41,268 nt of DNA from Deltaproteobacteria bacterium. Lineage in GTDB: Bacteria; Myxococcota_A; Polyangia; JAAYKL01. Positions 19,182-32,809 of the stretch are shown here, in pieces (position 1 is the first letter of the stretch; every line of letters begins with the position of its first letter). The position numbers were made by a program, and so were the translations under genes. The DNA lies in NCBI GenBank assembly GCA_030621515.1, contig JAUXHN010000012.1, positions 1-41,268 of the forward strand. Reading direction: 5' to 3'. Below the pieces are notes generated by a model. That model worked only from the letters and a program-made list of their open reading frames with translations. It was not told the origin of the DNA and did no database searches.

Positions 19182-22100
19182 ATGATTCATCTGCTGGACC
19201 AGCTAACCAAGCTCGCTGAATCTGGAAGAAAACTTACCGGCGTCAGCGATCTCGACGAACTCTATGAAAACATCTTTGATCTGGTCACGGCCATTTTCGA
19301 TAACCAGACCGCCGCGATACTGCTGCGCAACCCTCGAGACGGAACCCTCTCCATCGTCGCCTCCCGCGGATACGACCCGGAGGTTGTGAAGATGTTCAAG
19401 GCGGCCCCGGGCCAGGGCGTGACCGGCCATGTATTGCAAAGCGGCGAACCCCAGCTCGTCACGGAGACGGTGAACGATCCCAGGTATATCTGCGGTGTGC
19501 CCAAGGCGCTCTCGGAGATAGCGGTTCCCCTGAGATCGGGCAACGAAGTCATGGGCGTGCTCGACATGGAAAGCGCCGAGCATCGCTTCACCACGGCGGA
19601 CCAGACGATGTTCGTAACCCTGGGCGAACAGGTCGTCACGGCCATTCGCAACATTCAACTCCAGGCTAGCCTCGAGGAGCGCGCGCGCAAGCTCGTCTCC
19701 ATCGCCAAGGTGGGGCAATCCCTCATTCAGGAACCCGATCTCGACAAGCTTCTCGAGCGCGTTGTCGACTCGGTTCACGAGGCGCTCAGGCTCGACACGT
19801 CGGCCATCATGATGTGGGACGAAAAGCAGGAGAACATGGTCGTGGTAACGGTCAGGGGCTACGATCGCGACGTGATCGGGCTCTCGGTGCCCAGGGGAAC
19901 CGGTGTGACCGGGAAGGTCGCACAGGAGCGCAAGCCCTGCATCATTGAAGATGTCACACAGATCCAGAACTACATACCCGGACTCGAGGGTTGTCGCTCG
20001 GAGATGGCTGTCCCCCTCATGTTCCAGGGCGAAGTCATCGGGATACTCAACGTGGAGCACAGGGAGGTCAACCGATTCGACGAGACCGATCTGCTCCACG
20101 CCACCATCTTCGCCGATCAGGCGGCCAGCGCCATCGCCACCGCCCGGATCAGAAAAGACCTCACAGCAACCAGGCGGGAGGTCACGCAACTCTCGACCAA
20201 ACTGGGACTACTCGCGAAGACCTCTGCCAAATTGACATCCATTTCAAGCCTGGACACATTGCTCGACCGAATCCTGACCCTGGCGCGGGACATTCTCGGG
20301 TTTGGGCAAATCGCCCTTCTGCTCCCGGAGCCCTCCGGCCTCCATCTCAAGGTCTCCAGATCTGCGGGTTTCGACGCGGGCACCGAGGGCCGGCTGATTC
20401 CGGTGGAGGGATCCATCAGCGGAACCGCATACAACACAGCCACATCCCAGCTCGTGCCGGACGTCACCACGGATCCCAATTACGTCAGCGGCTGCGAAAA
20501 CGCCCGATCGAACATAGCCGTGCCCCTGATAGTCGAGGACGACGCTGTGGGCGTACTCGTTGCCGAGTCCATAGGCGACGAGACCCTGACCGAGGTGGAC
20601 GTCGAGGTTCTGGAAACGCTCGCCTCCCAGGTTGCCTCCGTGGTCCAGGCCGCGCGCCAGAGAACCGACCTGGCCGAAAGAAGCAGGCGCCTGACGATGA
20701 TCCACAGGGCCGCGTGCTCACTCAACGCCATCGAGGATCCCGAGGAGATGTTGACGACCATCCTCCAGATGGCAAAAAAAGCCCTGGGGTTCGACGCCGT
20801 CGCCATCCTCACCCCCTCCGGCGATGGAGAAAACCTGACCGTTCGCAAGGCACTCGACCACGGCGACGTGGAAGGTCTCAAGATGCCCATCGGCACGGGC
20901 TTCGTAGGCGAGATGTTCGTTACCGGCAAGGCTCACATCATCGACGACATCGAGGATTTCGAAAACTACATCCCCGGAACGCCGGGCGCCCGTTGCGAGA
21001 TGGCCGTACCGCTTACCCTTGACGGCAACACCATCGGGATTCTCGACGCGGAGGCGATGGAACCGTACGCGTTCACTATTTCCGATCTCGAACTCTTCAG
21101 GGTCTTCGGTTCCCAGGTGGCAACCGCTCTCAAAAACGCGGGGATGATCCACGATCTGGAAGACCGCGCCAGGAAGCTCACGCTCATCCACAGGGCCGCG
21201 TGCTCACTCAATGCCATCGAGGACCCAGAGGAGATGCTGGCGACCATCCTCCAGATGGCAAAGAAAGCCCTGGGGTTCGACGCCGTCGCCATCCTCACCC
21301 CCTCGCGCGACGGAGAAAACCTGACCGTTCGCAAGGCACTCGACCACGGCGACGTGGAAGGTCTCAAGATGCCCATCGGCACAGGCTTCGTCGGTGAAAT
21401 GTTCGTCACCGGCAAGGCCCACATCATCGACGACATCGAAGATTTCGAAAACTACATCCCCGGAACACCGGGCGCCCGCTGCGAGATGGCCGTCCCCCTC
21501 ACCCTAGACGGCAACACCATCGGGATCCTCGACGCGGAGGCGATGGAACCGTACGCGTTCTCTGCCTCCGATCTCGAACTCTTCAGGGTCTTCGGATCCC
21601 AGGTGGCAACCGCTCTCAAAAACGCGGGAATGATCCAGGATCTGGAAGACCGCGCCAAAAAGCTCACGCTCATCCACCGGGCCGCGTGCTCACTCAACGC
21701 AATCGACGAACCCGACGAGATGCTGGACATCATTCTCAGTCTCGCGCAGAAGGCCCTGGGGTTCGACGCCGTCGCCATCCTCACGCCGGACAAGTATGGC
21801 AAGCACCTGACCGTTCGACGAGCCATCAATCACGGCGACGTGGAGGGCCTCGAGATACCCATCGGCGAGGGCTTCGTGGGCGAGATGTTCATTACCGGCA
21901 AGGCCCAGATCATCGACGATATCGAGGCCTTTGAAGACTACATCCCCGGAACGCCGGGCGCCCGTTGCGAGATGGCCGTGCCGCTTTCCCTGGAAGGCGA
22001 GACGATCGGAATCCTGGATGCCGAATCCATGGAGCCCAACACCTTCACCGAAGAAGACCTGAAGCTCTTCCGAATCTTCGGCTCCCAGGCGGCCACCGCC

Positions 22101-23666
22101 CTGCACAACGCGCAAATGATCGCCAATCTCGAATCGAGGAGCCGGCGCCTGGCCTCACTCAATCAGGCCGCCCGCGCGCTCAACTCCATCCACGATCCCA
22201 CCGAGATCCTCGACAAGATCCTCGAAACCGCATGCGCAGCTCTGGACATCGATCAGTGCGCCCTGTTGCTCACAGACCCGGACGACAATGACCTGATCCT
22301 CCACGCGGCCATCGGATACGGCTACGCCCTGGGCACCCACGTTCCCCTGGGAGAGGGCATCACCGGCCGCGCTGCCCAGACCGGCGAGACCATCCTCATC
22401 AACGACACGTTGGAGGAAGAGAGCTACATCAAGGATGAGGGAAAGGATCCGGCTCGAAGCGAGCTGGCGTCCCCGCTCATCATCCTGGATGAGACCATTG
22501 GGGTCTTCTATACCAAGAGCCCCCATCCGAACGCCTTCGACGAGCAGGACGCGGATATCTTCAAGGCCTTCGCGGCCCAGGCGGCCGTGGCCATCCACAA
22601 TGCGCGGCTCATCAAGGGGCTGGAGGACGCCAACAGGATGCTCGGCGAAACCGTTGCCGAAACCAATCGACTCAACAAGGAACTCGAAAACTACGCCGCT
22701 CAGATCTCCGAAGCAAACGTGAACCTGGAGCGGCAGATCCTGCAGCTCACCACGCTCCATGAGGCAGGGCGAACAATAACGTCGAGTCTCGACCTGGACA
22801 CCACGCTGCACACTATCCTCTCCATGACCTCCAAGATCATCGGCTCCACCGCGGGCGCCATCAAGCTCATCGACGAGGAAACAAAGGAGCTGCGGATAAA
22901 GGCCGAGGAGGGCAAGCTGATGGAGGGTAGCGGCCCCAGATCCGTGCTGGATCTCCCCCTCCGCATCGGTGACAAGACCATCGGCGTGTTCGAGCTTGTC
23001 CGCGAAGCCAGGGACGCCCTCGACGACGACGAGAGGCAGATGCTCGAGACCATGGCGTCACAGGCGGCCATCGCCATAGAGAACGCCCGACTGTTCGAGA
23101 ACACGCAGCGCGTCTATTACGAAACCCTGAAGTCCCTCGCTGGCGCACTCGAAGCCCGTGACGACTACACGCGTGGTCACTCGGAGCGCGTGGCCAAAAT
23201 GTCCAAGGAAATCGCCGTCAAGCTCGACTTGCGCACAGATGATGTGGAAAAGATCCACAACGCGGCCTTGCTTCACGACATCGGCAAGATCGGCATTCGG
23301 GACGAGGTCCTCCTCGCGCCGAGAAAACTGACCGTTGATGAACGCACAATCATCGAACAGCACCCGTCATTCGGCAACACCATCCTGAGGCCGCTCAAGT
23401 TTTTGGGCGATATCCGCAAATACGTGAGGTTCCACCATGAGCGCTGGGACGGCACCGGGTACCCTGATGGGCGCAAGGAAACCGAGATCCCGCTCGCTTC
23501 CAGGATCATTGCCGTGGCGGACACGTATGACGCCATGACCTCCACCCGACCCTACCGCGCCGCGCTATCCGTCGAGACGGCCATCGACGAGATCACGAAA
23601 GCCTCGGGGTCCCAGTTCGATCCCAGTGTGGTCAAGGTGTTCCTGGAAATCGTCAACGCTTCCTGA
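19182..23666 (+). CDS. Multi-GAF sensor with C-terminal HD-GYP phosphodiesterase
   Basis: 1494 residues with no transmembrane segment. Eight GAF domains stand in a row: about 15-160, 175-325, 345-490, then four of 162-residue period (496-657, 658-819, 820-981, 982-1143), and a last at about 1182-1305 after a coiled coil (about 1145-1180). The C-terminal HD-GYP domain (about 1313-1490) keeps HDIGK (1366) and HHERWDGTGYPDG (1418), as in active c-di-GMP phosphodiesterases. It should lower c-di-GMP (or cGAMP) in response to GAF ligands. GAF domains 4 and 5 differ at only a few residues, a recent duplication. A TTG just before the ATG at 19182 is an alternative start. Confidence 0.93.
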   Translation: MIHLLDQLTKLAESGRKLTGVSDLDELYENIFDLVTAIFDNQTAAILLRNPRDGTLSIVASRGYDPEVVKMFKAAPGQGVTGHVLQSGEPQLVTETVNDPRYICGVPKALSEIAVPLRSGNEVMGVLDMESAEHRFTTADQTMFVTLGEQVVTAIRNIQLQASLEERARKLVSIAKVGQSLIQEPDLDKLLERVVDSVHEALRLDTSAIMMWDEKQENMVVVTVRGYDRDVIGLSVPRGTGVTGKVAQERKPCIIEDVTQIQNYIPGLEGCRSEMAVPLMFQGEVIGILNVEHREVNRFDETDLLHATIFADQAASAIATARIRKDLTATRREVTQLSTKLGLLAKTSAKLTSISSLDTLLDRILTLARDILGFGQIALLLPEPSGLHLKVSRSAGFDAGTEGRLIPVEGSISGTAYNTATSQLVPDVTTDPNYVSGCENARSNIAVPLIVEDDAVGVLVAESIGDETLTEVDVEVLETLASQVASVVQAARQRTDLAERSRRLTMIHRAACSLNAIEDPEEMLTTILQMAKKALGFDAVAILTPSGDGENLTVRKALDHGDVEGLKMPIGTGFVGEMFVTGKAHIIDDIEDFENYIPGTPGARCEMAVPLTLDGNTIGILDAEAMEPYAFTISDLELFRVFGSQVATALKNAGMIHDLEDRARKLTLIHRAACSLNAIEDPEEMLATILQMAKKALGFDAVAILTPSRDGENLTVRKALDHGDVEGLKMPIGTGFVGEMFVTGKAHIIDDIEDFENYIPGTPGARCEMAVPLTLDGNTIGILDAEAMEPYAFSASDLELFRVFGSQVATALKNAGMIQDLEDRAKKLTLIHRAACSLNAIDEPDEMLDIILSLAQKALGFDAVAILTPDKYGKHLTVRRAINHGDVEGLEIPIGEGFVGEMFITGKAQIIDDIEAFEDYIPGTPGARCEMAVPLSLEGETIGILDAESMEPNTFTEEDLKLFRIFGSQAATALHNAQMIANLESRSRRLASLNQAARALNSIHDPTEILDKILETACAALDIDQCALLLTDPDDNDLILHAAIGYGYALGTHVPLGEGITGRAAQTGETILINDTLEEESYIKDEGKDPARSELASPLIILDETIGVFYTKSPHPNAFDEQDADIFKAFAAQAAVAIHNARLIKGLEDANRMLGETVAETNRLNKELENYAAQISEANVNLERQILQLTTLHEAGRTITSSLDLDTTLHTILSMTSKIIGSTAGAIKLIDEETKELRIKAEEGKLMEGSGPRSVLDLPLRIGDKTIGVFELVREARDALDDDERQMLETMASQAAIAIENARLFENTQRVYYETLKSLAGALEARDDYTRGHSERVAKMSKEIAVKLDLRTDDVEKIHNAALLHDIGKIGIRDEVLLAPRKLTVDERTIIEQHPSFGNTILRPLKFLGDIRKYVRFHHERWDGTGYPDGRKETEIPLASRIIAVADTYDAMTSTRPYRAALSVETAIDEITKASGSQFDPSVVKVFLEIVNAS
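20667..22124 (+). repeat. Three in-frame tandem 486-bp units encoding GAF domains 4-6
   Basis: The shared TCCACAGGGCCGCGTGCTCA-like segment recurs at 20701, 21187 and 21673 (the third with a few changes), an exact spacing of 486 bases (162 codons). Units at 20667-21152 and 21153-21638 are nearly identical in DNA; the third has diverged more, and the next domain (from 22125) keeps only the period. The order suggests stepwise duplication, with the first pair the youngest or homogenised by gene conversion. Confidence 0.9.
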
Positions 23667-25799: not shown

Positions 25800-26312
25800 A
25801 TGGAACCCAAGATAAAGAGAAACCCAAAGCGGCGACACGGCCCGGTGGACAGGGTCAAGGTTCCGGTGGGCTTGGAGAAGATTCTATACCACGCTGCTGA
25901 TGACGATGAGTTCAAGCAACTGCTGCTGGAAGACAGGGAAGCGGCGATCACGAGCACGAACGTGCGGCTTCGGAAGTCGGAGGAAGCGGTTCTGAAATCC
26001 GTCTCCGACGACGCTCTGGATGCAATGATCGATAGAATAGTCACCAGAAACCCCAAACGGCGCAGATTCATGGGTCTGGTAGCGGCCGCGGCCGCGTCTC
26101 TGGCTGCGGGGACAGCGGTGATTGGCTGCGACGAGGTCGATACCAAGTATGACTATGCTGACGCAGGTGGTTGCGACATCGACTGCGATACAGACACCGA
26201 TACAGAAACGGATACGGATACAGAAACGGATACGGATACAGAAACGGATACGGACACCGATACGGATACAGACCCCGACGCGGGAACCGACGCCGGGCCG
26301 GACGGCGGGTAG
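25800..26312 (+). CDS. Paralog A1: leader-like domain, lipobox-type segment and Asp-Thr repeat tail
   Basis: 170 residues, one of six related genes in this locus. A basic start is followed by the conserved domain (about 20-82: VPVGLEKIL, HAADDDEFKQLLLEDREAAI, SEEAVLKSV, ALDAMI), which resembles leader domains of the NHLP/Nif11-like precursor clan. Next come basic residues (NPKRRRF), an Ala-rich hydrophobic stretch (91-108) and IGC at 110, then an acidic tail of Asp-Thr-Glu repeats ending DPDAGTDAGPDGG. The RRRFM start is Tat-like. It may be a secreted lipoprotein with a long cytoplasmic N-terminal extension, or a modified-peptide precursor. GAGGAA precedes the ATG. No known function. Confidence 0.75.
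   Translation: MEPKIKRNPKRRHGPVDRVKVPVGLEKILYHAADDDEFKQLLLEDREAAITSTNVRLRKSEEAVLKSVSDDALDAMIDRIVTRNPKRRRFMGLVAAAAASLAAGTAVIGCDEVDTKYDYADAGGCDIDCDTDTDTETDTDTETDTDTETDTDTDTDTDPDAGTDAGPDGG
26199..26252 (+). repeat. Three perfect tandem 18-bp units in the tail of paralog A1
   Basis: The unit GATACAGAAACGGATACG (coding Asp-Thr-Glu-Thr-Asp-Thr) occurs three times without change at 26199, 26217 and 26235. Perfect in-frame repeats like this change length easily by slippage, so the tail length probably varies between strains. Confidence 0.92.
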
Positions 26313-26925: not shown

Positions 26926-27411
26926 ATGAGTGACGAGACAAAGCGAGCAGGTCGAAACGGCCCTATCAAGGGCTCATGGAAACGACGTGGGGTTTCGAAC
27001 GACGCCGAGGTGCCTGTAAATCTGGAGCGGATCCTGATCATGGCTGCGCAGGACGAGCAGTTCCGCGAGCTATTGTACGACAATCGCAATGAGGCACTTT
27101 CGAGGAGCGGTATCGTCTTCACTCCGTCTGAAGAGGCCGTGTTCAGTGCGATGCCGCAACAAATGCTGGAGGCGATGATATCGCGGTTCAAACCGGCCAG
27201 GCAGCGCAACCGACGGTTCCTCAAGAACGTCGCAACGGCGGCAATGGTGGGTGGATTGCTCATCGCTTCTTGCGACAATCCCGACGATGCGATTGCCTGT
27301 GGTGGCGTCGGGCCGGATATCGACTCCGACAGCGACGGCGATACGGATACGGACACAGATACGGACACCGATACCGAACCGGACGCCGGAAACGACGGCG
27401 GGGACAACTAA
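26926..27411 (+). CDS. Paralog B1: leader-like domain, lipobox-type segment and acidic Asp-Thr tail
   Basis: 161 residues, subfamily B. It starts MSDETKR with GPIKGSWKRRG, shared with B2. The conserved domain (about 29-88) reads VPVNLERILIMAAQDEQFRELL, then NRNEALSRSGIVFTPSE and LEAMISRF. The hydrophobic part (about 101-113) follows RNRRFLK and ends IASC (Cys116). The tail has GPDIDSDSDGDTDTD repeats, similar to calcium-binding Asp loops, and ends DAGNDGGDN. I prefer the ATG at 26926, which matches the B2 start; a GTG nine codons earlier (26899) is possible. The radical SAM gene starts five bases after the stop. Confidence 0.75.
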   Translation: MSDETKRAGRNGPIKGSWKRRGVSNDAEVPVNLERILIMAAQDEQFRELLYDNRNEALSRSGIVFTPSEEAVFSAMPQQMLEAMISRFKPARQRNRRFLKNVATAAMVGGLLIASCDNPDDAIACGGVGPDIDSDSDGDTDTDTDTDTDTEPDAGNDGGDN

Positions 27412-32272: not shown

Positions 32273-32809
32273 ATGAAGAAACCCAAGAAAGAACGGAGCG
32301 GCGAGTGCCAGGAGTTGGTTGGATCGTGGAAGCGACACAGCGGAGGCTCCAGCATTGATATTCCGGTCAATTGGGAGCGCGTCATGATCGAGGCTGCGCA
32401 AAACCCGGATTTCAAGGAGAGCCTGATTGCAAACCGTGAACAGGCAATCGCACGCGCCGGGTTTCGACTTTCGGACTCGGAGAACGCAATGCTGGCCGCC
32501 CTGTCACCGGAAACCCTCGAGGTGATGATCCGCTCCATCGATCCCGGACGGTCGAAAAATCGACGTTTCGCAAGAACTGTAGCGACTGCAGCGATGGTAG
32601 GTGGGATGCTCATCGCTTCTCACGCATGTGAAGAATTTGATTGCGGAGGCATCGGTCCGGATATCGATTCCGACAACGATACCGATACGGACACTGACAT
32701 AGATACAGATACTGACACCGATACTGATATCGATACGGACACCGATACTGATACCGATACAGGTGTAGATCCTGACGCGGGAAACGATTCCGGTTCGGAT
32801 GCGGGCTAA
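32273..32809 (+). CDS. Paralog B3: leader-like domain, lipobox-type segment and long Asp-Thr tail
   Basis: 178 residues, the most divergent member of subfamily B. It keeps GSWKR, then IPVNWERVMIEAAQNPDFK, NREQAIARAGFRLSDSE and LEVMI. KNRRF leads into a hydrophobic stretch with VATAAMVGGMLIAS as in B1, ending SHAC (Cys119). The tail begins CGGIGPDIDSDNDTDTDTD, shared with B1, and is longer than in the others, ending DPDAGNDSGSDAG. I start at the ATG at 32273 with AGGGGG ahead; longer frames overlap A3 and lack conservation. It lies ten bases after A3, forming a second A-B pair. Confidence 0.75.
   Translation: MKKPKKERSGECQELVGSWKRHSGGSSIDIPVNWERVMIEAAQNPDFKESLIANREQAIARAGFRLSDSENAMLAALSPETLEVMIRSIDPGRSKNRRFARTVATAAMVGGMLIASHACEEFDCGGIGPDIDSDNDTDTDTDIDTDTDTDTDIDTDTDTDTDTGVDPDAGNDSGSDAG

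Follow-up and report, generated by a model that had tools for sequence, protein, structure and literature searches.

The gene at 19182-23666 (plus strand) is read in our study as encoding a predicted cytosolic cyclic-dinucleotide phosphodiesterase, most likely acting on c-di-GMP, in which tandem copies of a GAF domain at one slot have lengthened the input rod, and we assign this reading a probability of about 0.6. The gene lies in a window of 41,268 nucleotides, which is the whole stretch of DNA analysed here (Deltaproteobacteria bacterium, Polyangia; JAAYKL01; assembly GCA_030621515.1, contig JAUXHN010000012.1, positions 1-41,268, forward strand). The architecture and the history of the protein are well supported, whereas the functional step is what we infer from them. 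Fusions of GAF and HD-GYP domains, as in PmGH, and a seven-GAF array, as in PtxD, are already known; as far as the literature was searched, what is new is an HD-GYP protein with eight GAF domains, and a single slot that has grown repeatedly. That search, in which subscription papers were sparsely covered, yielded no paper in which a single protein is said to have eight GAF domains or more, none describing this duplication and none for the motif string.

Domain order and predicted output of the protein

The open reading frame encodes 1494 amino acids and its start codon is placed at ATG 19182 (MIHLLDQL), as the N-terminal residues are common to the homologues in G001 (a different metagenome-assembled genome of the same genus, record JAUVAN010000216.1) and G006 (genus g5) and are found at the DNA level in G002, a third genome of the genus. 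The highest Kyte-Doolittle mean over 19 residues is 1.58, with no obvious membrane segment, and the protein is predicted to be cytosolic. The Pfam models GAF, GAF_2 and GAF_3 each match eight stretches, with totals far above the curated cut-off, and these are followed by HD_5/HD, so the original prediction of eight GAF domains before an HD-GYP domain is borne out, with the eighth shortened. It had also been remarked that few sensors carry this many GAF domains, and this is supported locally: in a search of the genome the GAF_2 cut-off was exceeded at eight places in this gene, while the other open reading frames gave at most two GAF_2 matches each. Among the best listed matches of six relatives, the maximum in an open reading frame outside the relatives of this gene was four GAFs (G009:C62 and G006:C36).

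With a unit profile derived from the gene's own eight GAF domains, seven full-length units were recovered, and GAF8 without its middle (profile positions about 61-102). GAF1 (19191-19676), GAF2 (19680-20165) and GAF3 (20190-20675) are orthologous across the family according to the profile and the unit tree. The unit starts from GAF1 to GAF8 are spaced by 163, 170, 163, 162, 162, 162 and 197 codons, and the strict period of 162 codons is thus confined to GAF4-GAF7. The shortened GAF8 (22728-23108), recognised in the profile, the alignment and the predicted structure, leads into the HD-GYP domain (23139-23630), which was delimited by Pfam, the unit search and alignment with PDB 4mcw.

The HD-GYP domain contains HDIGK and HHERWDGTGYP at residues 1369 and 1422, and none of its metal-ligand or motif residues varies among the 13 aligned sequences. 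Its closest solved relative is PmGH of Persephonella marina (PDB 4mcw/4mdz/4me4; E 4.2e-41 with 4mcw), in which a C-terminal HD-GYP domain is likewise joined to a GAF domain by a long helix. The model of GAF8 with HD-GYP, of modest quality (pLDDT 70.6), has a four-stranded GAF8 from which a 49-residue helix runs on towards the HD-GYP domain. Of the metal ligands of PmGH, eight in number, seven are present (H189, H221, D222, H250, H276, H277 and D305 in PmGH numbering), as mapped through the 4mcw alignment, for which we took chain index and published numbering to differ by 6, the ligand list being that of PMC4159591. PmGH differs in having one GAF domain against eight here, and in its Glu185, the position of which is held by Tyr (DDYTRGH) in 13 of 13 sequences in place of the Glu/Asp of the trinuclear PmGH type. 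By its Tyr the present domain falls into the Y/F subgroup of HD-GYP domains, which is presumably dinuclear according to PMC4159591. Seven GGDEF matches were found in the same genome, which makes a source of substrate likely and c-di-GMP the likely substrate of the predicted HD-GYP; 3'3'-cGAMP, which some HD-GYPs favour as stated in PMC8177086, is a possible substrate as well.

The GAF domains were also inspected for three kinds of ligand motif, none of which fits. GAF domains that bind cyclic nucleotides (PDE/CyaB type) carry the motif NKXnFX3DE; no NKFDE-like motif occurs in the whole protein, where F-x3-D is found six times without the NK and the E. In bilin-binding GAF domains the chromophore cysteine is usually followed by His or Tyr, and neither CH nor CY occurs anywhere in the protein. 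The catalytic cysteines of free methionine-R-sulfoxide reductase, which we take to be those of the GVCG and HIAC segments, are replaced by other residues in GAF6 at the positions where 3mmh, 8dgd and yebR have Cys. A long array in a single sensor is shared with PtxD, a cyanobacteriochrome of Nostoc punctiforme, whose seven GAFs are the highest count in the literature searched (PMC6696110 and PMC5812497); at least six of the PtxD domains bind bilin, whereas the present array has neither dipeptide and ends in an HD-GYP output.

The neighbourhood was considered as a clue to function and dropped. The upstream gene for an Lcl_C-domain protein and the downstream gene for an ICMT-like protein are conserved only within the genus, Era-like and Der genes are neighbours in G006 too, and ten window proteins tried near other relatives gave no further neighbour except an Lcl_C-like match in G026. 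The promoter scan of the plus strand before the gene was empty, and the terminator-like matches were all on the minus strand. Short tandem repeats of the GATACG/GACACC type (periods 6 to 30) were seen elsewhere in the window at 26187-26272, 27346-27374 and 32660-32760; one lies inside the open reading frame 25800-26312, which matches twice in one G002 contig.

The 486-nt repeat and its history

Tandem Repeats Finder reported a single array of period 486 with 2.7 copies at 20700-22015, and the head-to-tail copies GAF4 (20679-21164), GAF5 (21165-21650) and GAF6 (21651-22136) measure exactly 486 nt each. A tandem duplication of 486 bp had originally been placed at 20667-21638, and it is confirmed: the units 20667-21152 and 21153-21638 are identical at 442 of 486 nucleotides and 152 of 162 amino acids. 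Its left edge is better moved. Fourteen of the 44 mismatches fall within the first 33 nt, only 30 remain in the 453 nt from 20700, and the similarity to the sequence 486 nt downstream reaches to about 21200, so that the copied segment is better set at 20700-21199. In the frame used for the shuffling test the identity at lag 486 is 446/486, as against a best of 194/486 over 200 codon shuffles of the gene, which excludes chance.

GAF4 and GAF5 (92% DNA identity) differ mostly at synonymous sites (dS 0.285, dN 0.036). GAF6, which matches the two units at 369 and 375 of 486 nucleotides (76% identity) and differs from GAF4/5 at about one quarter of its residues, is a third and older copy of the module. 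GAF7 (22137-22625) was considered as a fourth copy of the array and rejected: it matches the same units at only 223 and 215 of 486 nucleotides, has 25-26% ungapped amino acid identity to GAF4-6 of the same protein and forms a separate old clade in the unit tree. The further claim, that diverged units with the same 162-codon period follow the duplication, therefore holds for the spacing, which continues through GAF7, and fails for GAF7 as a member of the recent array.

The original prediction had suggested comparison with sister strains, and G001 carries the same full-length eight-GAF gene, a 1498-aa open frame with the same eight domains and 96% amino acid identity. Exact runs at lag 486 reach at most 71 nt here and 63 nt in G001, and no 80-mer is repeated. 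GAF4 of G001 is nearest to GAF4 here (95% DNA identity) and its GAF6 to GAF6 here (94%). GAF5 is about equally close to its G001 counterpart (91%) and to its own GAF4 (92%), which dates the split of GAF4 and GAF5 to about the age of the species split; their dS of 0.285 lies near the top of the range for single domains between the species (0.105-0.296). A clade uniting GAF4 and GAF5 of this species, as expected of a duplication confined to it, was rejected on DNA (p-AU 0.0184; reruns 0.0023 and 0.0111) and less decisively on protein (p 0.078). The duplication extends beyond one strain and dates from about the time at which the two species separated; the description of it as recent holds only in part.

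In case of G002, the gene lies on two contigs (C124 and C201; L053 start, L054 end) which break within GAF4/5 and whose ends overlap by exactly 141 identical nucleotides, the k141 of the contig names. An overlap equal to k is expected from a de Bruijn assembler where a branch could not be resolved. A straight read through the overlap would mean seven GAFs, and a loop in the graph eight or more, or a mixture within the population; the two contigs were kept separate.

Matches at E <= 1e-120 were obtained in nine of 14 genomes of the family (none in the other five) and in 14 of 144 genomes of the class, in families f1, f5 and f18. Complete open reading frames contain eight GAFs here and in G001, seven in G006, six in G011 and G009, five in G050, G034, G026 and G042, and four in G008. 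The variation at slot 4 follows the genus: a single GAF4-type copy is present in two genera (G011 and G009), two in one (G006), at least two in another (G003, where the gene is split by contig ends) and three in the genus studied here. Variation in copy number, which had been suggested between cells, was thus observed between genera, at one to three GAF4-type modules. At the high end of contig C93 of G003 (L044), an apparent reverse-complemented GAF4-type piece was read by eye, and it is most simply an assembly chimera. A relative in G007 (L047:6725-8380) has three GAFs, GAF1-like, GAF2-like and a very diverged third, and ends without HD-GYP, and the open reading frame of G017 is truncated by its contig start. 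The five-GAF relatives of f5 (G026, G034, G042) and f18 (G050) share the general plan, with 59-60% identity over GAF8 and HD-GYP, but differ in their five GAFs, which are not simple orthologues of slots 1-3. In G050 (L048:5908-8943) GAF2 pairs with GAF3 (98/88), which may reflect yet another independent duplication.

The unit tree comprised 71 units from 14 of 16 open reading frames (those of G042 and G017 were left out), with G008_1, G007_3, G008_2 and G008_3 as long branches of uncertain placement. GAF1, GAF2, GAF3, GAF7 and GAF8 of the family each cluster by position across genera, whereas GAF4-type units cluster by genus: G006_4 pairs with G006_5 (96/84), the two copies of G003 pair (92/82), and GAF4/5 and GAF6 of this genus fall together (97/92). 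Groupings that join one of the G006 copies to one of the copy types here, as a single duplication common to G006 and this genus would predict, were rejected on DNA; like the other groups put to AU tests, they had been named after the first tree was seen. The values on DNA were low (p-AU 0.0005-0.0008), and also with fewer long rows (0.0002-0.002 for all positions, 0.006-0.019 for codon positions 1+2). The four tests on protein gave weaker values (p-AU 0.0645, 0.0202, 0.0662 and 0.0201). The grouping by genus together with these rejections indicates either repeated expansion of slot 4 or homogenisation of old copies.

Proposed mechanism and competing explanations

In the predicted structure of GAF4-GAF5 (pLDDT 82.5), GAF4 ends and GAF5 begins in one and the same helix of 44 residues (model residues 138-181). 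The left edge of the duplication at 20700 maps inside the corresponding helix connecting GAF3 and GAF4, at residue 12 of the fragment that was modelled. A copy would hence add a module without breaking the frame or the helix. Unequal crossing-over inside the shared connecting helix may thus add or remove whole 162-codon modules, and the protein would tolerate changes in their count as frame and helical register are kept. In structural comparison the model came closest to the GAF-A/GAF-B tandems of PDE5A (3mf0_A, Z 22.6, rmsd 3.7 over 310 residues) and PDE2A (3ibj_A, Z 21.6). The predicted pair superposes over its full length, and a helix likewise lies between the domains, but identity in these matches is 13-15% and the NKFDE-like motif is absent. 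The dimer is envisaged as a rod of parallel chains, like those of PDE2/PDE5 and PmGH, in which each added unit would be one more module in register. The arrangement is unsure, since the model is a monomer with a pTM of only 0.54 and an unsure angle between the domains, and the GAF tandem of cyanobacterial CyaB2 is antiparallel (PMC1592074).

Ligand binding by the GAF domains would be relayed along the helices and across the shortened GAF8, altering the rate at which the HD-GYP domain hydrolyses its substrate. The ten differences between GAF4 and GAF5 among 162 residues comprise eight in predicted helices, two in loops and none in strands. As the whole predicted strand core is shared, GAF4 and GAF5 are expected to bind the same ligand and may provide several equal sites, which could make the response more sensitive or more cooperative without extending it to new ligands; GAF6 has probably begun to diverge. 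The earlier suggestion that the duplication serves the dosage of one ligand is compatible with this predicted placement of the differences.

Near-neutral drift has an appreciable though minor chance of being the explanation instead. In that case crossing-over changes the number of GAFs in a rod indifferent to its length, harmless extra modules are kept and homogenisation maintains their likeness. A copied unit preserves frame and helix, so gain or loss should be mild, and the related proteins range from four to eight GAFs; moreover, the two GAF4-type copies of G006 (L041:5324-9316) are under weaker constraint, with a dN/dS of 0.57, several-fold above that of the window copies. These G006 copies may be diverging in function. 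The copies here are, however, under purifying selection, with a dN/dS of 0.125 between GAF4 and GAF5, and of 0.013, 0.146 and 0.122 between the two species for GAF4, GAF5 and GAF6 respectively, and all three have been retained since the species split.

A single old duplication of GAF4 that evolved in concert by gene conversion within each lineage, in place of repeated independent duplication, has a similar, minor chance and would produce the same trees. Weak signs of homogenisation were indeed found. When GAF4 and GAF5 of the two species are compared, unit positions 143-362 (candidate conversion tract 20821-21040 in GAF4, partner 21307-21526 in GAF5) contain three species-shared and no copy-specific sites, as against one and seven in the rest of the unit interior (one-sided p 0.024 for a tract picked after looking at the data), and the identical 141-nt stretch on both G002 contig ends corresponds to unit positions 166-306. 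On the other hand, the single copy in G011 and G009 then calls for a loss, unless these branched first, and the G006 copies group with no copy here.

Diversification, in which the copies move toward different ligands so that a single enzyme integrates several signals, is improbable: the divergence of GAF6 and the high dN/dS of the G006 pair would suit it, but the few differences between GAF4 and GAF5 spare every predicted strand. An assembly error, which had been raised as a possibility, is extremely improbable for the second copy here, for although tandem repeats do break assemblies of this gene, as in G002 at GAF4/5, and an inverted fragment appears to sit at the G003 contig end, the copies differ at 44 of 486 nucleotides, share no exact run beyond 71 nt and recur in G001 with the same architecture and copy-specific differences.

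Implications for GAF arrays

Growth of the input rod at one slot bears on how GAF arrays are understood. Such arrays are usually read as sensing of multiple ligands, whereas here the growth is confined to one slot, the adjacent slots have remained single, and the most recent copies have the same predicted core. A bolder reading, speculative and quite unlikely at present, is that the count of identical sensors is an evolvable setting of a c-di-GMP enzyme. The slot would then be a recombination hot spot with repeated independent gain and loss of register-preserving modules, perhaps still going on within populations, and cells would tune sensitivity or cooperativity by counting sensors and not by mutating them. 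The related proteins offer a natural series of one, two and three copies, in which it can be asked whether added identical modules alter sensitivity, cooperativity or only length. Further, the unit that preserves both reading frame and helical register provides a way by which such rods may lengthen.
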